Shown here: positions 1 to 18,836 of the stretch, piece after piece
How positions within the stretch are numbered: the stretch's first letter is position 1
Layout of the letters: each line of letters begins with the position of its first letter
Virus record (IMG/VR): IMGVR_UViG_3300045996_000302
Coordinates: 1-29,449 of that record
DNA length: 29,449 nucleotides
Reading direction: 5' to 3' (one strand)
Source of the DNA: a virus
Program-made: the position numbers and the translations under genes
Notes under the pieces: model-generated
Database searches by the model: none
Told to the model about the DNA's origin: nothing
The model's input: the letters and a program-made list of their open reading frames with translations, nothing else

Positions 1-582
1 GACGATGGCTCCGTCTTCCTCTTCGATCCAGCATACGGAACTAAGTTCTGCACGATGGACGTTGCCGCCTCGGAAAAACAGTCCGCGGACTACTCCGTCA
101 TCGCTACTTGGATTGTCACTCCGCAAAAGGACCTACTCCTTTGGGACCTTGAGAGGCATCAGTTCGAAGGTCCAGACATTCTGCCAATGGTTCGACGGGT
201 GTACGCGGAGCAGCGTCCAGGTGTTATCGGGATCGAGCGTCTCGGATATGGCCTGAACGTAATCCAGACACTCCTCCGCGAGGGGTACCCCATCGTTCGT
301 CTCGAACCGGACACAGATAAGGTGTCGCGTGCGCTCCCGGCAGTGGCTCGCTACGAGGAGCATCGCGTCTACCACCCGCGCAATGCTCATTTCGTTGAAG
401 AGCTGGAACACGAACTCCTTGTCTTCCCAAACGGCGCCAATGACGATCAGGTCGACGTTGTCAGCTACGCGGCCTTGCAGCTCCCCACGGTCGGTGCTGG
501 TCATCGTCGCTCCATGCAGGAGCACAAGGTGCGCACGGGGCGCTCAACGATCACCGGTGGTCTCCTCTCCGACGTGCTGTAG
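1..582 (+). CDS. terL: Terminase large subunit, C-terminal part (partial)
   Basis: The frame is open from the first base of the window, so the N-terminal ATPase domain lies upstream. The visible part is the RNase H-like nuclease that cuts concatemeric phage DNA at the start and end of packaging. It begins DDGSVFLFDPAYG and continues with TMDVAAS, the first catalytic Asp of this fold; IERLGYG supplies the middle acidic residue, and NGANDDQVDVVSYA matches the terminal [H/N]DDxVD signature of phage terminases. The next + strand genes are portal and head genes, which is the usual order. The stop codon is at 580-582, and its last 39 bp overlap the end of a minus-strand ORF. The family call is secure. 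What is missing is only the upstream half; no frameshift is visible. Confidence 0.92.
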   Translation, partial: DDGSVFLFDPAYGTKFCTMDVAASEKQSADYSVIATWIVTPQKDLLLWDLERHQFEGPDILPMVRRVYAEQRPGVIGIERLGYGLNVIQTLLREGYPIVRLEPDTDKVSRALPAVARYEEHRVYHPRNAHFVEELEHELLVFPNGANDDQVDVVSYAALQLPTVGAGHRRSMQEHKVRTGRSTITGGLLSDVL

Positions 583-780
583 GACGTAGACGTGCCCAGC
601 ATGGGTGAGCGGGAAGTCGTCAGGGTGCCACATAGCCGTCAGAATCCGCCCGTGCGGGCCGTGCATACGCAGGTAACCCCTTTCGTCCCGCACGGGGTCA
701 GCGACCGTGTAGCGGGCGCGCAGGGCGTTGCGATCCACGGTGCGGCGCTCGATGATCGCGCCGGGTGAGAAGTCAGTCAT
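544..780 (-). CDS. Small hypothetical protein on the minus strand (78 aa)
   Basis: I do not recognise this gene. It is the only plausible minus-strand gene in the window. The ATG at 780 gives a 78-residue protein starting MTDFSPGAIIERRTV, with a balanced, globular-looking composition (RYTVADPVRDERGYLRM, PLTHAGHVYVLQHVGEE) and no Cys pairs or membrane segment. A weak purine stretch (GGACGG) lies a few bases upstream of this ATG. The frame also opens at a GTG at 828, but that extension adds a poor-looking segment. It converges on the terminase gene and overlaps its last 39 bp. It fills an otherwise empty interval, which argues for it; the lone strand switch argues against it. It may be a control or DNA-mimic-sized protein, but nothing in the sequence shows a function. 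Confidence 0.5.
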   Translation of the reverse strand: MTDFSPGAIIERRTVDRNALRARYTVADPVRDERGYLRMHGPHGRILTAMWHPDDFPLTHAGHVYVLQHVGEETTGDR

Positions 781-790
781 TGTTCCGTCC

Positions 791-798
791 GATAGTTC
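791..798 (+). promoter_or_regulatory. GATAGTTC motif upstream of a 10-codon ORF
   Basis: One of the exact GATAGTTC copies found on the + strand. Six bases after it an ATG (805) opens a 10-codon reading frame, MVNMSKSHSG, that stops at 835-837 inside the first long stem of the structured region. The same motif-to-start spacing is seen before several real genes (starts at 1106, 4942, 16056). It could mark a leader peptide or be chance. Confidence 0.3.
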
Positions 799-830
799 GA
801 TATGATGGTCAACATGAGTAAGTCGCACTC

Positions 831-1040
831 GGGCTAGCGGCGGGTCAGCGGATGCGCCGTCGCTAGCTCATCTACGGGAGTCGGGTAACCAGGCCCGGCA
901 CGCAGCTTCGAGTGGCTGCCTCCCGACTGCACCCTCGCGGGTGCTCATGGCAGGCCCCCCTGACGCCGTAAGGCACCTTCGGGAAGGGAATGTTACCGGC
1001 AGTTTCCACATAGCGCCGGTAGCTGAAACAAGTGGTCAGG
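831..1040 (+). ncRNA. Candidate structured RNA between terminase and portal genes
   Basis: No convincing protein gene is seen here, but inverted repeats fill the interval. Stem 1 pairs 831-843 with 857-869 (13 bp, two G-U). Stem 2 pairs 879-885 with 922-928 and encloses 902-906/915-919. Stem 3 is a perfect 6-bp hairpin with a 4-nt loop (929-934/939-944), abutting stem 2. Stem 4 pairs 959-964 with 1035-1040 and encloses a GTAA-loop hairpin (965-967/972-974), a 4-bp hairpin (976-979/984-987) and a 7-bp stem (994-1000/1015-1021). The loop of that last stem (1002-1006) can also pair with 1025-1029, a possible pseudoknot. All of this is seen by hand; I could not compute folding energy or covariation. 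No known RNA family is recognised. It could be a trans-acting phage RNA, a leader for the head operon, or part of a termination region. Confidence 0.4.
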
Positions 1041-1050
1041 CTCCTCCTAC

Positions 1051-1076
1051 GATGGCCCCGCCCAGGCGGGGTCGTC
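1051..1076 (+). terminator. Terminator-like hairpin before the portal gene
   Basis: Positions 1051-1061 pair with 1066-1076 in an 11-bp stem (GC-rich, two G-U pairs) around a 4-nt loop. No U-run follows (GTGTGTCTAGGG), so it may be a weak or Rho-assisted terminator, or the 3' closing stem of the structured region just upstream. Confidence 0.5.
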
Positions 1077-1088
1077 GTGTGTCTAGGG

Positions 1089-1105
1089 TAGGATAGTTCA
1101 GGCTG
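1089..1105 (+). promoter_or_regulatory. TAGGAT / GATAGTTC start-associated motif of the portal gene
   Basis: TAGGAT (1089-1094) matches the actinobacterial -10 consensus and overlaps GATAGTTC (1092-1099), which ends 6 nt before the ATG at 1106. The next bases (AGGCTG) are nearly identical to those before the tape-measure start at 19554. No clear -35 box is visible. No Shine-Dalgarno sequence sits at normal distance. Either a promoter giving a leaderless or very short-leader mRNA, or a translation-associated signal. Confidence 0.45.
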
Positions 1106-3985
1106 ATGCTCGACGCCTTCCGCAACCGCAAAGTGAAGAAGTCACCTGAGCCTAAGCCGAGCTACGCTCCGAAGGGCGAGGCAGGGCGCGGGCACACCGA
1201 GGGTTGGCTTGACCTCGAAGAGTTCAACAATGATCTGAAGCACCCGCACGGTCATCGTGTCTATGACAAGATGTACCGGACAGACGGCGATGTGCGTCAG
1301 GTCGTTCAGTTGATCTGTAACCCGATCATTGCCGGTACCTGGGCCGTGGTGCCCTACGGTGGCGAGCACGCTGATGACGAGGCGCAGGACATCGCCGCGT
1401 TCATCAAGTGGGCGCTGTTCGAGGCAATGTCGCCCAACCTGTTGCAGCACCTCCAGTCGATGCTACCTATCCTGGTCCGCAGCGGGTTTGTTCCTTTCGA
1501 GAAGATTTGGAAGACCGCCGAGTACACGCCGGTCGAGCGCGCGCCGGGCAAGGAGGATGGCGAGCGCATGAAGAAGGAGGCCGAGCAGAAGGCCGAGAAG
1601 AAGGAGAAGGCTGCTCAGGAGATGCAGAAGGAACAGCTCAAGGCGCAAACGGACATCGCCAAGGAGCAGGAGAAGACCAAGCAGAAGCAGGTCGCCAAGA
1701 AGGCACTCGAAGCGATCCGCAAGGCGCTGTACGCGGGCACAATCACCCTTGCCGAGGCGACTGCGATGACCAAGCAGGTCGTCACGGAGAGCAAGGGCGA
1801 CGACGCCGAGCGCAACAGCGAGTCGAAGCGCACCGTTGTCGTGCCCCGCACTCTCAGCGTGCGCCTTCCCCGCACCATCGAGAAGTTTGAGCAGGACGAG
1901 TGGGGCGAGCTACGGCGCATCAAGCAGTGGCTGCCGGTTCCCCGCACGTCGCTTACTGCGCGCGAGGGTGGCCCGCTGAAGGATGAGCCGCAGCGCCCCG
2001 AGGGTCCGTCGTACGTGTGGCTGGATGCGGAGAACCTGATCTACTACCGCATCGGAGCCGAAGGGGACAACTGGGAGGGTGTCTCCCTGCTACGTCCCGC
2101 GTACAAGCATTGGCTGTACAAGGACAAGATTGAGCGTATTGACGCCATTGCGCAGGAACGGGAGGCGCTGGGCATCCCGATCTGCTACCCGCCCCTGGGA
2201 GCCGATGAGCGACAGCTCGATGAAATCGAACTTGTACTCCAGGCGATGCGGGCTAACGAGCAGGCGTACATTGTCGCTCCAGGGCCGAAGGCCGCGGCTG
2301 GTGCGCCAGAAGGTCAGGGTTGGCTGTTCGAGGTGATCGGCTACGACCGCACGGGCAGTGGTCGAGACCCACAGCCGTCGCTGGAGTATCACACGCTCAA
2401 GATCGCCGCGAGCTTCATCGCGGAGTTCATGCGGCTCGGACACGGGCAGACGGGTGCTCGCGCGACGGCGCAAGTGCAGGCCGACCCCTTCCAGATGTCG
2501 GTCGAAGCTCTCGTTGGGATCGTCGAGCAGCAGCTCAACACACTGGTACGCGAGATTGTACGCGTCAATTACGGTGAGACTCACAAGGTTCCTAAGTTGC
2601 AGATGTCGCTGGTGGATTCCACCAGCCTCTCACAGCTCGCCGACTACGTGCAGAAGCTGACGCAGATCGGCGCGTTGCTCCCGGACCAGGAGCTTGAGGA
2701 CTTCCTTCGTGCGCGCGCCGACCTGCCGCCCGCGAACCCTGCGTCGATCGAGAAGCGCAAGGACAAGGACGACGAGACACGTCGCATGATCGTGACGGGT
2801 GGGACTACCTCGGCGGAACAGGCCGAGGCGGGTGCCGAGGCACCGGGCGGTCCGCCCAAGGGCGATCCGTTCGGCGCGAACGCACCTGTTGGCAAGCACG
2901 GTACAAAGGACGCACCGCAGAAGACTCAGTCGGGTGGCGGTGCCGCATCGAACCGCTCGCGCGACGATGAGGCGATCACGCTCAACGCTGACTTCCTCCC
3001 CCCCGAGGAGGGTGGCCCGCGTCCCAGGCACCGCGACCTACGTTGGCTTGAGCTGACGGTCGATTGGGATGCACTTGAGGACGAGATGGATGCTCTGCCG
3101 GAACGAGCTATCCAGCTTTGCGGCGATCATGTGTTCGGCAAGGCGTGCGGAGCAGACGTGAGTGACACGGAGATGCACGATGCTCTTGCTCGGTTGCTGA
3201 ACGACGCTTACGACTACGGTTACAACAGCGTCGTCGAGGAAGTCGCGCATCAGCGAGAGCTTGCGGGGCTTGTACTCGATCGGGGTGCGGTTGACCGTGG
3301 CCGGAAGCATCTCGACCAGCGTGTTGAGCTGGCTGTCGAGTTCGTGAACTTCGCTCTTCGTCAGGCGAAGATCAATGCTGATCTTATCTATGGGCATGAT
3401 TCCAAGGTGCAGCTCGCGGTTGAACAGGCCGGCCTCGCTGCACTGAAGGCGGTCGGTCGTGACCATGCGGTCAACTCATTGCTCCTCGGTCGGCACGATG
3501 CGGGGCGCTACCTTGATGAGGAGGACGACAGTGTACGCATCCTGGGGGTCCGATACTCTGCCGTACTCGACAAGGGAACTTGCGGTCCGTGCGCTGAGTC
3601 CGATGACGGTCGCCTGCGCCGTGTTGATGACCCTGTTCGTCTTGATCGCAGGCCGCCGAACCGTCACTGCGACTCGACAGCTTCGGGCTTCAATCGTTGC
3701 CGTTGCACCGAGGTCTACGAAGTGCAGCCCGAGAATGCGTTTTCCCACAACCTGGGTGTGGCTCTGGACGACGGAGGACTCCACCCCTACCTCGCACGGG
3801 TAGCAACCGCACTGATGGCGCGCGGGATGGATAGCAACCGGGCGGTGTCGACGGCGCTGGGGATCGCCAAGACACACTGCACGTCCGGTCGCATCAACTG
3901 GCCTGGCATCCGCGCCATCAACCCCGGGTCTCGTTCCGAGGCGTGCGAGGCGTTGGCACAGCATGGCTACGAGTACACTACTTAG
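1106..3985 (+). CDS. Portal protein fused to MuF-like minor head protein (959 aa)
   Basis: The portal forms the dodecameric ring through which DNA enters the head; MuF-type proteins are minor head components ejected or used in assembly. Residues about 30-580 read as a Mu gp29/DUF935-like portal (DVRQVVQLICNPIIAGTW, YLYKDKIERIDAIAQ-type core). Residues about 640-959 are a MuF-type domain with C826xxC829 (GTCGPCAESDDG) followed by RHCDS and NRCRC, a likely zinc-binding cluster. Residues 148-206 are an extremely Lys/Glu-rich, coiled-coil-like insertion inside the portal half, and 600-650 is a Gly/Pro/Ala-rich linker. In most phages portal and MuF are separate genes, so this is a fusion; no internal stop or frameshift is seen. 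The start at ATG 1106 is preceded by a GATAGTTC motif rather than a normal ribosome site. The end overlaps the methyltransferase start by 23 bp. Confidence 0.85.
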   Translation: MLDAFRNRKVKKSPEPKPSYAPKGEAGRGHTEGWLDLEEFNNDLKHPHGHRVYDKMYRTDGDVRQVVQLICNPIIAGTWAVVPYGGEHADDEAQDIAAFIKWALFEAMSPNLLQHLQSMLPILVRSGFVPFEKIWKTAEYTPVERAPGKEDGERMKKEAEQKAEKKEKAAQEMQKEQLKAQTDIAKEQEKTKQKQVAKKALEAIRKALYAGTITLAEATAMTKQVVTESKGDDAERNSESKRTVVVPRTLSVRLPRTIEKFEQDEWGELRRIKQWLPVPRTSLTAREGGPLKDEPQRPEGPSYVWLDAENLIYYRIGAEGDNWEGVSLLRPAYKHWLYKDKIERIDAIAQEREALGIPICYPPLGADERQLDEIELVLQAMRANEQAYIVAPGPKAAAGAPEGQGWLFEVIGYDRTGSGRDPQPSLEYHTLKIAASFIAEFMRLGHGQTGARATAQVQADPFQMSVEALVGIVEQQLNTLVREIVRVNYGETHKVPKLQMSLVDSTSLSQLADYVQKLTQIGALLPDQELEDFLRARADLPPANPASIEKRKDKDDETRRMIVTGGTTSAEQAEAGAEAPGGPPKGDPFGANAPVGKHGTKDAPQKTQSGGGAASNRSRDDEAITLNADFLPPEEGGPRPRHRDLRWLELTVDWDALEDEMDALPERAIQLCGDHVFGKACGADVSDTEMHDALARLLNDAYDYGYNSVVEEVAHQRELAGLVLDRGAVDRGRKHLDQRVELAVEFVNFALRQAKINADLIYGHDSKVQLAVEQAGLAALKAVGRDHAVNSLLLGRHDAGRYLDEEDDSVRILGVRYSAVLDKGTCGPCAESDDGRLRRVDDPVRLDRRPPNRHCDSTASGFNRCRCTEVYEVQPENAFSHNLGVALDDGGLHPYLARVATALMARGMDSNRAVSTALGIAKTHCTSGRINWPGIRAINPGSRSEACEALAQHGYEYTT

Positions 3986-4967: not shown

Positions 4968-6057
4968 TGCGCCCGACACCCTGACGCTTGCGTCGGGGAC
5001 CGCGACATCACGCGTACAGATCGCTAAGACGGGGAACTTCGTTGATCCTCGCTACGGTAAGTTCTCCATCACGACCGCGGACTTTCGCAAGTGGATGGAC
5101 AACTTCGCAACCCTGTCCACCGCGCAGGACCGCGCTGGCCTCCCTGTGGACGTGGACCACGGGCCTGAGAAGCGTGGTGACACCGAGGCGGCGGGATGGA
5201 TCACCAAGCTGGATACGTTGGGCAAGGACGGGAAGACATCGTCACCCAATGAACTCTGGGCCACTGTCGAGTGGAACAGCCTGGGTCAGGAGCTAGTCAC
5301 CGACAAGCGTTACCTGTACCTCTCCCCCTCCTACCAGCACAACTACAAGGACGAGAACGGACGTGCGCATGGCACCGCGCTGGTTGGTGTCGGCCTCACG
5401 AACCGTCCCTTCCTGACGATGGCAACCGTGTCGCTTTCCAAGTCGGCACAGTTCGCTACGGAGGACGTGACGCCGCCCGCGCCCGCGCGCGAGTCGGATA
5501 GTTCGACCTCGATGCCGGAACTGAGCAACACCATTCTCACCAAGCTCGGGCTGGATGACAAGGCTGATGAGGCGGCGGTGCTCGCCGCCATCGATGGCCT
5601 GTCTACGAACCCGACCCTCGACGACCTGGCGAAGAGCCAGAACAAGGTCGTCCTCGACGCGAGCGATGTCACGACGCTGCTTGCAGATGCGACGGCGGGC
5701 CGTCAGGCTGCCGACGAGCTGCACAAGCAGAAGTTCGAGACGGCGTTCGACAAGGCCCTGTCGCAGGGCAAGGCCACTCCGGCGCAGAAGGAGACCTACG
5801 AGAAGCTGTATGCCGCTGACGCGGATACGACCCTCTCGGCTCTCGACAGCGCCCCGGTGGTCCTGAACATGCACGGTGTCGGCGGCTCGGGTAGCGATAC
5901 CCTCGCTCACGATGCTGGCGGGACGCTCTCGGCTGAGGCCGACGGCCTTGCGGTTGACGAGGACCGCTCCGCGCTGCATGAGAAGGCGCTCCAGCTCGCT
6001 GCCGAGCGCAACATCGACTACGCTGACGCTGTCATCCTGGCCGCGTCGGGAGCGTGA
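4942..6057 (+). CDS. Mu I-like prohead protease/scaffold protein (371 aa)
   Basis: Acts inside the procapsid: the N-terminal part is a maturation protease and the C-terminal part is a scaffold around which the capsid protein assembles. Residues about 1-170 match the Mu-like I protease family: DVDHG (70-74), AAGWI (83-87), LWATVEW (105-111), YLYLSPSY (124-131) and VGVGLTNRPFL (148-158). H73 and S128 or S130 are candidate catalytic residues. After a Pro/Ala-rich hinge (177-190) the C-terminal 180 residues are Ala/Asp/Lys-rich and helical, as expected for a scaffold. In Mu, gene Z is translated from an internal start in gene I; here Met191 (codon at 5512) is in the right place. Decoration and capsid genes follow directly. 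The start at ATG 4942 overlaps the methyltransferase end by 26 bp. Confidence 0.85.
   Translation: MPDCLFIADAPDTLTLASGTATSRVQIAKTGNFVDPRYGKFSITTADFRKWMDNFATLSTAQDRAGLPVDVDHGPEKRGDTEAAGWITKLDTLGKDGKTSSPNELWATVEWNSLGQELVTDKRYLYLSPSYQHNYKDENGRAHGTALVGVGLTNRPFLTMATVSLSKSAQFATEDVTPPAPARESDSSTSMPELSNTILTKLGLDDKADEAAVLAAIDGLSTNPTLDDLAKSQNKVVLDASDVTTLLADATAGRQAADELHKQKFETAFDKALSQGKATPAQKETYEKLYAADADTTLSALDSAPVVLNMHGVGGSGSDTLAHDAGGTLSAEADGLAVDEDRSALHEKALQLAAERNIDYADAVILAASGA
5512..6057 (+). CDS. Probable nested scaffolding protein (internal start, 181 aa)
   Basis: An in-frame ATG at 5512 begins MPELSNTILTKLGLDDKADE at the junction between protease and scaffold parts of the 4942-6057 gene. A GATAGTTC motif (5497-5504) ends 7 nt upstream, the same motif and nearly the same spacing as before several other starts without Shine-Dalgarno sequences. 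A separately made scaffold from an internal start is the known arrangement in Mu (genes I and Z) and lambda (C and Nu3). The product would be acidic, Ala-rich and helical, with no protease motifs. Confidence 0.5.
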   Translation: MPELSNTILTKLGLDDKADEAAVLAAIDGLSTNPTLDDLAKSQNKVVLDASDVTTLLADATAGRQAADELHKQKFETAFDKALSQGKATPAQKETYEKLYAADADTTLSALDSAPVVLNMHGVGGSGSDTLAHDAGGTLSAEADGLAVDEDRSALHEKALQLAAERNIDYADAVILAASGA

Positions 6058-6063
6058 TCTAGA

Positions 6064-6465
6064 ATGGCTTTCGAGCTGACGCGCGACGGGTTCCAGCAGT
6101 CCTTCATTGCTGCATCCGCCGTCCTCCCGAAGCAGCCGGTTCAGGTGGTGGGTACCTCGGTGCCCTTCGTCATCCCTGCTGCGTCGATGAACGTGCGCCC
6201 CTTCGGTGTGGTCAAGGCAACTGCTGGTGCCTCGGGCCTCAACCAGGGCGAGACTGTCACGGTGTTCGAGGAAACGAACGTCGTGAAGATGGTTGCCTGC
6301 GCTTCGGTCGGTGCAGCCGCAGAGGTCGCCGTCGCATCCAGCAATGGTGCGGTCGGTCCTCAGACCCTCATCTCCGCGTCGGGTCACTGGGCTCTCGGTA
6401 TCACCGAGACCTCGGCTGACGCAGGTGAGATCGTCAGCGTCTACATCAAGCCCCGAAAGGCGTGA
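6064..6465 (+). CDS. Capsid decoration protein, DUF2190-like (133 aa)
   Basis: Small beta-rich protein placed directly between scaffold and major capsid genes, the usual place for head-stabilising decoration proteins. The middle (VRPFGVVKATAGASGLNQGETVTVFEETNVVKM is the region at residues about 42-75) and the end (SADAGEIVSVYIKP, about 118-131) follow the pattern of the DUF2190 family, whose members trimerise on capsid threefold sites. Gly and Val/Ala are abundant; no Cys-pair motif or membrane segment is seen. GGGAG (6048-6052) lies 11 nt upstream of the ATG, a long but possible ribosome-site spacing. The gap to the capsid gene is 5 bp. The exact family is a judgement from pattern and context. 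Confidence 0.7.
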   Translation: MAFELTRDGFQQSFIAASAVLPKQPVQVVGTSVPFVIPAASMNVRPFGVVKATAGASGLNQGETVTVFEETNVVKMVACASVGAAAEVAVASSNGAVGPQTLISASGHWALGITETSADAGEIVSVYIKPRKA

Positions 6466-7458: not shown

Positions 7459-7489
7459 AACGGCCCCGCCCCCAAGGGGTGGGGCCGTT
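7459..7489 (+). terminator. Strong intrinsic terminator after the capsid gene
   Basis: Positions 7459-7472 pair with 7476-7489 in a 14-bp stem (one G-U) closed by a CAA loop, followed by TTTGCTT. This is the clearest terminator in the window. It would separate high-level head transcription from the downstream genes, or limit read-through. Confidence 0.85.
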
Positions 7490-7981: not shown

Positions 7982-8314
7982 ATGGTCCCTGTCGGCTGGC
8001 GGGCCTGGTACGTGGGCGGCGCAGTCTACGAGGGCACCACTCTTCAATCATGGCGGCAAGCACCCGAGGATGGGTTGCTTGTCGTCATGGTCTACTTTGA
8101 CGAGTTCATGGGTAGTGAGCGTATCCGTGCAATCGCGCAGGGTGACGACTGTTACTGGATTCAGTCGGACGGGTCGATCGCGCATAACAGTGATACGCCC
8201 GAGTCGAACAAGCAGCGGTATGGCAGGAACATTCCGCTCAAGCGCGGAATGTGGACGGCGGTAGCCGAGTACGAGGCTGCGGTCGCTGCCGCGATGGCGT
8301 CGACCTGGGAGTAG
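7982..8314 (+). CDS. Hypothetical protein, possible virion component (110 aa)
   Basis: Function not recognised. The N-terminal half is aromatic and beta-like (GWRAWYVGGAVYEGTTLQSWRQ, then GLLVVMVYFDEF), the middle has a hairpin-like YWIQSDGSIAHN, and the C-terminal 30 residues are an Ala-rich helix (EYEAAVAAAMAS). There is no signal peptide or Cys pair. It starts 5 bp after the preceding stop without a visible ribosome site, and its stop is 3 bp before the next ATG, so it is translated as part of the same operon. Position between structural genes suggests an accessory virion or assembly role. Confidence 0.6.
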   Translation: MVPVGWRAWYVGGAVYEGTTLQSWRQAPEDGLLVVMVYFDEFMGSERIRAIAQGDDCYWIQSDGSIAHNSDTPESNKQRYGRNIPLKRGMWTAVAEYEAAVAAAMASTWE

Positions 8315-12625: not shown

Positions 12626-12801
12626 TCCTGAAGTGCCAGAACATGCAGTGCGGCCGTCTGACCACGGACACCGAGGCTAACCAACGGGTAGTAAACCAGG
12701 GCCGCTGCGGTGAGTGCAATGGGGCACTTGCTCCCCAAGCGCATCAGGTGACCGCGGCAGATACACAACTCAACATCTTCCACACGAGAGACAATGGCTG
12801 A
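12622..12801 (+). CDS. Tiny zinc-ribbon-like protein (59 aa), Com-like in layout
   Basis: Starts at ATG 12622 with an ATGA overlap with the glycosyltransferase stop and ends at TGA 12799-12801, overlapping the ParB-like start by 8 bp. The N-terminal part has a C5-x4-C10 pair and the middle a C29GEC32 pair, the layout of a one-zinc ribbon. In phage Mu, Com is a zinc-binding protein of similar size that activates translation of mom. The tail (HQVTAADTQLNIFHTRDNG) is polar. The overlap at both ends and the Cys pattern make it a real gene; a Com-like role is only an inference from size, Cys pairs and the Mom-like gene nearby. Confidence 0.7.
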   Translation: MILKCQNMQCGRLTTDTEANQRVVNQGRCGECNGALAPQAHQVTAADTQLNIFHTRDNG

Positions 12802-13423
12802 GATCGTCACAACCGAGCTAGTTACGATTGACACGCTGAACCCGTACCCCGGCAACGCTCGCCGAGGTGATGTTGAGCGCATCCGCGAAAGCCTGCGGGT
12901 CAATGGTCAGTACCGACCAATCGTCGTTCAAGCTGACACCAACTACATTCTCGCTGGCAACCACACTTGGATGGCCGCGATGGAGGAGGGTTGGTCTGAC
13001 ATCGCCGTCACGTACGTCAAGTGTGATGATGTCGAGGCGCGGCGCATCGTACTCGTTGACAACAAGTCGAACGATGATGCAGCCTACAATGACGAGGCGT
13101 TGGCCGACCTTCTCAAGCAGCTCGATGGCAACTTTGAGGGTACGGGTTTTGAAGCGGCGGACCTCGACAACCTTCTCACCACTCTTGGGTCGGACGACTT
13201 TGAAGCCGTCCTGGGTGGGCTTGCGGGCGATAAACCTGAGTTCGTTACGATGAGCTTCACTTTGCATGAGGAACAGAAGCGCTCCATTGATGAGGCGATG
13301 GAACTCGCCAACGATATGGGCGAGTACGTCGACACGGGTAACGAGAACAAGAACGGCAACGCGCTCGCACGGGTTGCCGAGATGTTCCTCGGCCAATACA
13401 AGTCGGATGCCGATTCAGTATAG
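12794..13423 (+). CDS. ParB/Srx-fold nuclease-like protein (209 aa)
   Basis: Residues about 1-95 match the ParB N-terminal domain: VTIDTLNPYPGNARRGDVERIRESL is its opening, then GQYRPIVVQ, YILAGNHTWMAAMEEGW (the GNHT in place of the chromosomal GxRR box) and an ITYV-like strand before DDVEARRIVLVDNKSND. Phage members of this family are annotated as ParB-like nucleases or CTP-binding switches and often lie beside DNA-modifying enzymes. There is no recognisable helix-turn-helix partition domain after it; the C-terminal 100 residues are acidic and helical. It starts 8 bp inside the previous gene and ends 17 bp inside the next small ORF, so the whole 12622-14232 set is one overlapping unit. A role with the Mom-like enzyme downstream is likely but unproven. 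Confidence 0.8.
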   Translation: MAEIVTTELVTIDTLNPYPGNARRGDVERIRESLRVNGQYRPIVVQADTNYILAGNHTWMAAMEEGWSDIAVTYVKCDDVEARRIVLVDNKSNDDAAYNDEALADLLKQLDGNFEGTGFEAADLDNLLTTLGSDDFEAVLGGLAGDKPEFVTMSFTLHEEQKRSIDEAMELANDMGEYVDTGNENKNGNALARVAEMFLGQYKSDADSV

Positions 13424-13568
13424 GGTCTACGAGGGTGCCTTCTGCTGTATCAAGCATCGGGCACACTGCTCGAACGACCGCAACATTCGGCTAACCTGCT
13501 GGGAATGTGAGCACGAAGATGAGTGCGAAAGAGCTAGAGCTGAGGATCATCCCGGCGAAGCTGGCTAA
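13407..13568 (+). CDS. Tiny Cys/His-rich protein overlapping the Mom-like gene (53 aa)
   Basis: ATG 13407 lies inside the end of the ParB-like gene and the stop at 13566-13568 lies about 50 bp inside the Mom-like gene. The protein has many metal-ligand residues for its size: C13, C14, H17, H20, C21, C31, C34, H36 and C40 (FCCIKHRAHC, then LTCWECEHEDEC), which suggests one or two bound zinc ions. No ribosome site is obvious. In Mu, the zinc protein Com is encoded just upstream of, and overlapping, mom and exposes the mom start codon in the mRNA. The position here is the same, so this is the better Com analogue of the two small Cys proteins, though the Cys spacing differs from Com. Confidence 0.65.
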   Translation: MPIQYRVYEGAFCCIKHRAHCSNDRNIRLTCWECEHEDECERARAEDHPGEAG

Positions 13569-14232
13569 CCAGAAGATCGCTGAGCTTCACTACAGCGGGA
13601 AGTACGTGCGCAACTCGCAGGTACACATTGGGGTCTACTACGAAGGGTCGCTCGAAGGTGTGATGCAGTTTGGCCCGTCCCTGGACAAGAAGAAACTCAT
13701 TGGACTCGTTCGAGGTACTCGCTGGGACGGATTCATCGAACTCAATCGCATGGCTTTCAGTGATCGACTCCCCCGCAACTCCGAGAGTCGTGCTATTGCA
13801 ATCGCAATGCGGTTGCTTCGCCGTCATGCACCGAACCTTGGATGGGTCGTCTCCTTCGCCGACGCGACCCAGTGTGGGGACGGCACTATCTATCGTGCAA
13901 GCGGGTTCGTGCTCACGGGGATCACACCTTCCCCGAATCTTGCGCGCCTACCGGATGGCTCAACGATCCACAAGATGACACTCGAGTCGTCGCCGGCCTC
14001 GCCTCGTCCCGAAGCAGGAGGTCGGTCGTATTACCAAGTGACCAACGGGAAGTACAACTTCAAGGCGTACTGCAAGGCGGTGGGTGCCACGATCTTGCAG
14101 GGGTACCAGTTGCGGTACCTCTACTTCCTCAAGCCGGAGCTTCGTGAGCGGATGACGGTTCCGTCCATTCCGTTCTCTAAGATCGAAGAAGTCGGTGCTA
14201 GCATGTACCGAGGACAGGCGCGTAAAGCATAG
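13519..14232 (+). CDS. Mom-like DNA-modification acetyltransferase-fold protein (237 aa)
   Basis: Resembles phage Mu Mom, a GNAT-fold enzyme that converts adenine in DNA to a carbamoylmethylated (acetamido) form, blocking many restriction enzymes. Seen in order (numbered from ATG 13519): the His-Tyr pair in ELHYSGKYV (24-25), VYYEGSLEGVMQFG (39-52, the GNAT-type central strands), FIELNRMAF (72-80, R77), SESRAIAIAMRLLRRHAPN (88-106), WVVSFADATQCGDGTIYRASGF (109-130 with D115 and Y125). The HY pair, the SFAD aspartate and the tyrosine ten residues later follow the Mu Mom pattern. A GTG at 13507 is an alternative start; neither has a clear ribosome site, which would fit controlled translation. 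Its target base is inferred from the family, not shown. Confidence 0.8.
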   Translation: MSAKELELRIIPAKLANQKIAELHYSGKYVRNSQVHIGVYYEGSLEGVMQFGPSLDKKKLIGLVRGTRWDGFIELNRMAFSDRLPRNSESRAIAIAMRLLRRHAPNLGWVVSFADATQCGDGTIYRASGFVLTGITPSPNLARLPDGSTIHKMTLESSPASPRPEAGGRSYYQVTNGKYNFKAYCKAVGATILQGYQLRYLYFLKPELRERMTVPSIPFSKIEEVGASMYRGQARKA

Positions 14233-18796: not shown

Positions 18797-18836
18797 AACG
18801 CCCCGCTCTTGTCTGCCATGCCGAGAGTGGGGCGTT
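18797..18836 (+). terminator. Hairpin after the tail tube gene
   Basis: Positions 18797-18809 pair with 18824-18836 (13 bp, one G-U) around a 14-nt loop; no U-run follows. It sits in the 174-bp gap 18737-18910, which also holds a small CCCCC/GGGGG hairpin (18743-18755), a TACGAT that could be a -10 box (18860-18865, no clear -35), and a short GC hairpin (18880-18893). The gap could reduce expression of the chaperones relative to the tube protein. Confidence 0.55.

Follow-up and report, generated by a model that had tools for sequence, protein, structure and literature searches.

The structure in the gap between the terminase and portal genes of this phage is real, strand-specific in its folding and probably that of a small RNA gene, an orphan in the collections searched. 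We favour, tentatively and with a little less than even confidence, the reading that it is a discrete transcription unit of ~275 nt (~805-1079, + strand) whose product is a structured noncoding RNA; such a unit would be an "RNA moron" of the phage, acting in trans. A discrete RNA unit most simply accounts for a start box, a strand-specific structure, a hairpin at the end and a separate box ahead of the portal gene. Transcription would start at a GATAGT-N8 box, of the kind that also precedes the protein genes of the phage, and the RNA would form a junction domain at its 5′ side (807-956) and probably another one after it (959-1040). Transcription would stop at a last hairpin (1048-1079). The portal operon would then start afresh from its own box at 1092. 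The RNA moron itself would act in trans, and its likeliest target would be gene expression, of the host or of the phage, at a late stage of infection.

The window, by which we mean the whole stretch of DNA analyzed, is a virus record of 29,449 bases (IMGVR_UViG_3300045996_000302) with a GC content of 62%, and all positions refer to it (Table 1). The region under study is a structured gap (829-1105) between a reverse-strand ORF and the portal gene, after which come methyltransferase, protease, scaffold-like and capsid genes. The reverse ORF overlaps the end of the terminase gene and had no relative in PHROGs, in Pfam, in phages or in 12 other records. Inside the region, the longest + strand ORF has just 51 codons (941-1096), in agreement with a preliminary description of this DNA, which saw no convincing protein gene there. 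ARAGORN found no tRNA or tmRNA genes in the window. Further along, amid the structural genes (12794-14232), a Mom-like DNA modification gene comes after a ParB-like one; together with the methyltransferase at 3963, this suggests DNA modification as a counter to host defence.

Table 1. Features in and around the structured gap (positions in the window; P, pair probability; z, relative to shuffles)
Feature	Position	Strand	Evidence or remarks
Terminase large subunit, C-terminal part (truncated by window start)	1-582	+	PHROG 38, E 1.1e-23
Reverse-strand ORF, 94 codons from GTG 828 (78 from ATG 780)	544-828	-	ORF list
Gene-start box GATAGT, 8 nt ahead of ATG 805; identical to the box of the portal gene	791-796	+	Motif comparison
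TATGAT, alternative -10-like hexamer	801-806	+	Sequence
10-codon mini-ORF MVNMSKSHSG, after the box	805-837	+	Sequence; stop codon within hairpin A
Predicted domain I: hairpin A, module B and hairpin C, closed by helices 807-810/953-956 and 813-817/945-949	807-956	+	MFE of 805-1080, P 0.70-0.99
Hairpin A, 13 bp (831-843/857-869)	831-869	+	P 0.99; z -4.8 on +, -2.7 on -
Module B: 875-879/921-925, 880-886/893-899, 902-907/914-919	875-925	+	P 0.91-0.99; z -2.9
Hairpin C, 6 bp	929-944	+	P 0.78; z -4.0 on both strands
Predicted domain II: 959-964/1035-1040 encloses GUAA hairpin 965-974, hairpin 976-987 and 9-bp stem 992-1000/1015-1023	959-1040	+	P 0.56-0.98
Candidate pseudoknot 1002-1006/1025-1029	1002-1029	+	Complementary; support not gained
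Last hairpin, 14 bp, terminator type without long U run	1048-1079	+	P 0.98; z -5.1 on +, -2.1 on - (1049-1078)
Gene-start box GATAGT of the portal gene	1092-1097	+	Motif comparison
Portal protein gene (Mu-type portal)	1106-3985	+	PHROG 113, E 2.1e-44; PF06074, E 4.7e-31

Folding of 825-1080 gave a minimum free energy of -132 kcal/mol on the + strand, a value that none of 200 shuffles equaled (z -3.96), and of -107.9 kcal/mol on the - strand, equaled or passed by 103 of 200 shuffles (z 0.08). A comparison with shuffled controls had been proposed as a check in the preliminary description. In a 256-nt tiling of the window laid in the region's own register (114 positions, both strands), 825-1080 ranked first of 228 with a z of -4.61 on the + strand and about 0 on the - strand, and its strand asymmetry (-4.64) ranked first of 114, the next tile reaching -2.21; this tiling favors the region, since its register was picked from the finding itself. 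In an offset 250-nt tiling that cuts the last hairpin, the region came merely 15th of 234, and coding stretches reached -4.2. In a phage as GC-rich as this one, energy by itself does not single the region out; energy combined with the strand difference does.

When the fold was started at 805 (805-1080), closing helices were added and the energy went down to -136.6. Of the 87 pairs of this fold, 11 are G-U pairs; these can form in the RNA of one strand only, which fits the strand difference. These features bear on whether the region could instead be a DNA-level site of inverted repeats, used for the start of packaging, for replication or for protein binding. Such a site would suit a place adjoining the terminase gene, and several of the inverted repeats are true ones, but DNA palindromes would be strand-symmetric, whereas here the - strand folds no better than its shuffles and the + strand fold includes G-U pairs. 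Strand-asymmetric folding fits a + strand RNA better than a DNA-level palindrome, and we regard a DNA site as very improbable.

The eight stems listed in the preliminary description are all complementary as written, and seven of them are kept in the 805-1080 fold, with mean pair probabilities of 0.99 for 831-843/857-869 and 902-906/915-919, 0.78 for 929-934/939-944, 0.79 for 959-964/1035-1040, 0.91 for 965-967/972-974, and 1.00 for both 994-1000/1015-1021 and 1051-1061/1066-1076. The eighth, 879-885/922-928, had a probability of 0.0 and is ousted by 875-879/921-925 together with 880-886/893-899. The final stem had been put at 11 bp; it is present and extends to 14 bp (1048-1061/1066-1079). The closing helices of domain I (P 0.70-0.71) form only if the RNA begins near 805, which would create the junction 807-956. 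Domain II is less distinct, as its energy is only weakly below that of shuffles and near chance: 948-1048 gave a z of -1.15, with 35 of 300 shuffles equally low, and trimming to 957-1042 brought this to -2.26. The pseudoknot proposed earlier within this domain gained no support; its two arms are complementary, but a 5-bp match between loop and downstream segment occurs in 12% of shuffles, and the fold pairs 1002-1004 locally. An anti-Shine-Dalgarno motif, CUCCUCCUA, 3′ of domain II was considered and dropped; the motif is partly paired internally in one fold.

Taken together, the earlier view of a discrete folded RNA keeps its + strand-specific energy, its 5′ box, its terminator-type 3′ hairpin and its lack of an Rfam family, and loses the pseudoknot and the 879-885/922-928 stem. 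Most of the folding signal comes from the simple hairpins A, C and the last one, and for this reason the contrast that had been drawn with plain terminators is only partly earned. The same hairpins speak for the main ordinary rival, in which the region would be a hairpin-cluster terminator or insulator whose tandem hairpins stop or process terminase-side transcripts before the portal box, with no RNA having a function of its own. In PMC8355165, terminators are said to include clusters of hairpins that lack a U run, above all in GC-rich genomes, and the style of the hairpins matches those 3′ of the capsid and tail-tube genes. The abstract of that paper, however, gives a distance from the stop codon of at most 80 bases for 98% of its correctly identified sites. 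Here, hairpin A begins 249 nt past the terminase stop (582), with the reverse ORF in between, which is farther than the ~80 bases from a same-strand stop codon expected of a hairpin-cluster terminator; only the stop of the mini-ORF (837) is near. In addition, the box at 791, the nested module B and domain II would be superfluous for a terminator, and each of the two comparable sites elsewhere in the phage consists of one hairpin. We consider the terminator reading unlikely, if still a serious contender to the discrete RNA unit.

Under the RNA unit reading, the last hairpin would mark the end of the transcript. A similar single hairpin follows the capsid gene (7459-7489) and another follows the tail-tube gene (18797-18836), and GC-rich hairpins 3′ of capsid, tail-tube and structured region are what would be expected if the phage ends its transcripts in this way. 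A consensus terminator scan, which requires a T run, found no terminator. Another hairpin, of 16 bp with G-U pairs (8047-8091), lies within the ORF 7982-8314.

At the 5′ side, a consensus sigma-70 promoter scan found no promoter, and the candidate start signal is the box itself. Its general form, GATA[AG][TC]-N7-9-[AG]TG, occurs 44 times on the + strand and twice on the - strand in the ten records of the phage group (117 kb), compared with 24 and 12 times in 74 other loci (637 kb), which are a subset of the other loci. The narrower form GATAG[TC] is found eight times in the window, against a mean of 0.73 in 40 shuffles of the window. Sites of the box in the window are 791, 1092, 3830, 4928, 5497, 16042, 17520 and 19541. 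The box is also seen in L162, L088, L093, L089-L092, L095 and L096, and GATAG[TC] stands ahead of the portal start in eight of the ten group records, L096 having GATAAT and L092 none. At least 40 codons follow the box at 41 of the 43 sites inspected (one more was omitted, being too close to the record end), the exceptions being 791 in the window and 658 in L090; this is less striking than it seems, because at least 40 codons also follow 1974 of 3166 ATG or GTG codons on the + strand.

In high-GC bacteria, leaderless genes carry a TA-type signal ~10 bases ahead of the start, as described in the cited part of PMC3160421. GATAGT agrees with TATAAT at four of six places; in L004 and L005 the box reads GATAGC, without the final T. 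Judged from sequence, the box may serve either as a promoter of leaderless genes or as a translation signal of an unusual kind, the latter being suggested by the lack of a -35 element at a fixed distance. This group-wide gene-start box is possibly of greater interest than the structured RNA itself. Inside the head-protease gene, one box (5497, in the stretch 5497-6057) stands ahead of a start at 5512 in the same frame, from which 181 of the 371 codons of the outer gene are read up to the common stop, and this nested start recurs in L162 (7812), L093 (7593) and L092 (5986). The arrangement looks like a nested scaffold gene, such as lambda has. In L089, L090, L091 and L095, TTCTGAAA or TTTCAGAA is often present ~8-15 nt upstream of the box, unlike in the window, and is perhaps an operator.

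The box marks the starts of protein genes and the mini-ORF follows it at the usual distance, which raises the alternative of a cis-acting leader of the portal operon. A leaderless 10-codon peptide (805-837) would be translated, its translation would affect hairpin A, and alternative folds would then govern read-through of the last hairpin. The position of the mini-ORF stop within hairpin A would suit such a leader, as would a terminator-type hairpin that ends 26 nt ahead of the portal start. Against it, the portal gene has its own box past the hairpin and so could be expressed without read-through. The last hairpin forms with a probability of 0.98, no alternative anti-terminator fold was seen, and the mini-ORF is without a relative for comparison. 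We judge a cis leader to be improbable; a unit whose box and hairpin make it independent of the portal operon would instead point to a role in trans.

Searches for relatives of the structured RNA gave no convincing lead. The Rfam 15 covariance models had no match in the window at the gathering threshold, so the earlier remark that no family is recognized stands, and at E up to 10 there were three matches in 560-1130, of which the best, RsmY, reached 14.6 bits against the 57 needed and covered the last hairpin only. No sequence homologue was found in the phage collection or in plasmids, nor did two patterns from the 992-1029 region find one among viral contigs. Two covariance models were built, one for 948-1048 (R1) and one for 829-947 (R2), both from the window sequence alone, and they found nothing convincing beyond themselves in 79 sources of 725 kb (taken from the window and 162 loci, many but not all of the rest being shorter copies of the same contigs), in 12 other whole records or genomes, or in 396 genomes of one bacterial phylum; these blanks show little, since single-sequence models are weak and the true host may be another. 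A 20-bit match of R2 to 815-871 on the - strand is the complement of hairpin A. Given that no homologue of the structured RNA was found in the collections searched, there is no covariation to call upon.

Portal searches led to ten near records, including the window, and the terminase-portal slot varies among them. The gap measures 523, 1448, 952, 16, 43, 1091, 778 and ~1001 nt in eight records and at most 9 nt in a ninth (L096), and no terminase is in view in L092. It is this variability of the slot that makes the unit best seen as an accessory RNA moron. A variable slot and a region without homologues would also be seen if the gap held the remnant of a decayed gene or mobile element, GC-rich and foldable by accident, and a box and start codon followed by just 10 codons could be what is left of it. 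Decay is unlikely to produce the strongest strand-specific structure of the window, and no second copy of the region is present in the window record, which leaves a decayed remnant highly doubtful.

In the nearest relative, L004, whose portal is 61% identical (57% for the best segment in another search), the noncoding gap before the portal gene has a z of -2.71 on the + strand and -0.94 on the - strand and ends in a U-run hairpin. This structured gap (3653-3826), with TGATACACT upstream, is a further candidate for an RNA unit at this site, not homologous in sequence to that of the window. In L006, a noncoding gap directly 3′ of the portal gene (6191-6370) has TGTACACT upstream and several hairpins; its fold is unremarkable (z -1.3 on the + strand, not better than shuffles). 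Local alignment of the window gap with the gaps of L004, L005 and L006 was no better than with shuffles. Homology to L005 was indicated at first by structure-aware alignment, where 1 of 80 shuffles did as well, but it failed wider controls (2 of 400 with L005 shuffled, 128 of 400 with the window shuffled and 8 of 400 natural GC-matched stretches), and the score against the reverse complement was nearly equal. The words CGGCAGTT and CCTCCTA, common to the window and L004, are by our estimate within chance for words of seven to eight letters. These gaps are not demonstrably homologous to the window RNA. In a bolder form of the RNA unit reading, this would be a new class of late-expressed phage RNA, started from a phage-specific box and made of two four-way-junction domains with a terminator closing them. 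It would act in trans while heads are assembled or the host is taken over, and sister phages would carry unrelated RNAs in its place at this slot. We hold this form to be distinctly improbable.

Phage noncoding RNAs are rarely annotated, as gene callers see proteins only. If the unit is what we propose, its own start box and end hairpin within a head-gene cluster would make it a clean and testable example, and the gene-start box would be a handle for finding RNA units in this uncultivated phage group, where a box without a protein gene after it points to an RNA gene. Among known systems, the pRNA of phi29 is likewise a phage RNA near packaging genes. Unlike in phi29, the terminase and the Mu-type portal of the window are of the usual tailed-phage kind, and the pRNA model is not among the three Rfam matches at E up to 10 in 560-1130. 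A role in packaging, raised in the preliminary description, is thus backed by nothing beyond position. The hairpin-cluster intrinsic terminators, in the passages cited from PMC8355165, share with the window tandem GC-rich hairpins without a U run, and the window differs from them in stop-codon distance, start box and nested structure. GOLLD and ROOL are folded RNAs of phages and prophages, of unknown function and often near tRNA islands (PMC12286853, in the part cited); they are larger than the window RNA, and the window has neither a tRNA gene nor an Rfam match.

Also comparable are the noncoding phage RNAs of mycobacteriophages L5, D29 and StarStuff, whose genomes give rise, in a high-GC host, to an abundant small RNA with no ORF of size and of unknown function (PMC5712189, as far as cited). 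The cited part places these RNAs at the right genome end or in the gap between D29 genes 63 and 64, and the abundant one comes from an early promoter without an evident stem-loop terminator, so sites, promoter and terminator all differ from those proposed here; the search of the phage collection, our only sequence comparison with them, gave no match. The anti-sRNA genes AgvB and AsxR, found at the moron site of lambdoid prophages, encode Hfq-bound RNAs of 51-60 nt (PMC4104026, in the passages cited), compared with ~275 nt and a high degree of folding for the window RNA. They share with the unit that we propose the making of a small RNA from an accessory phage site that is variable.
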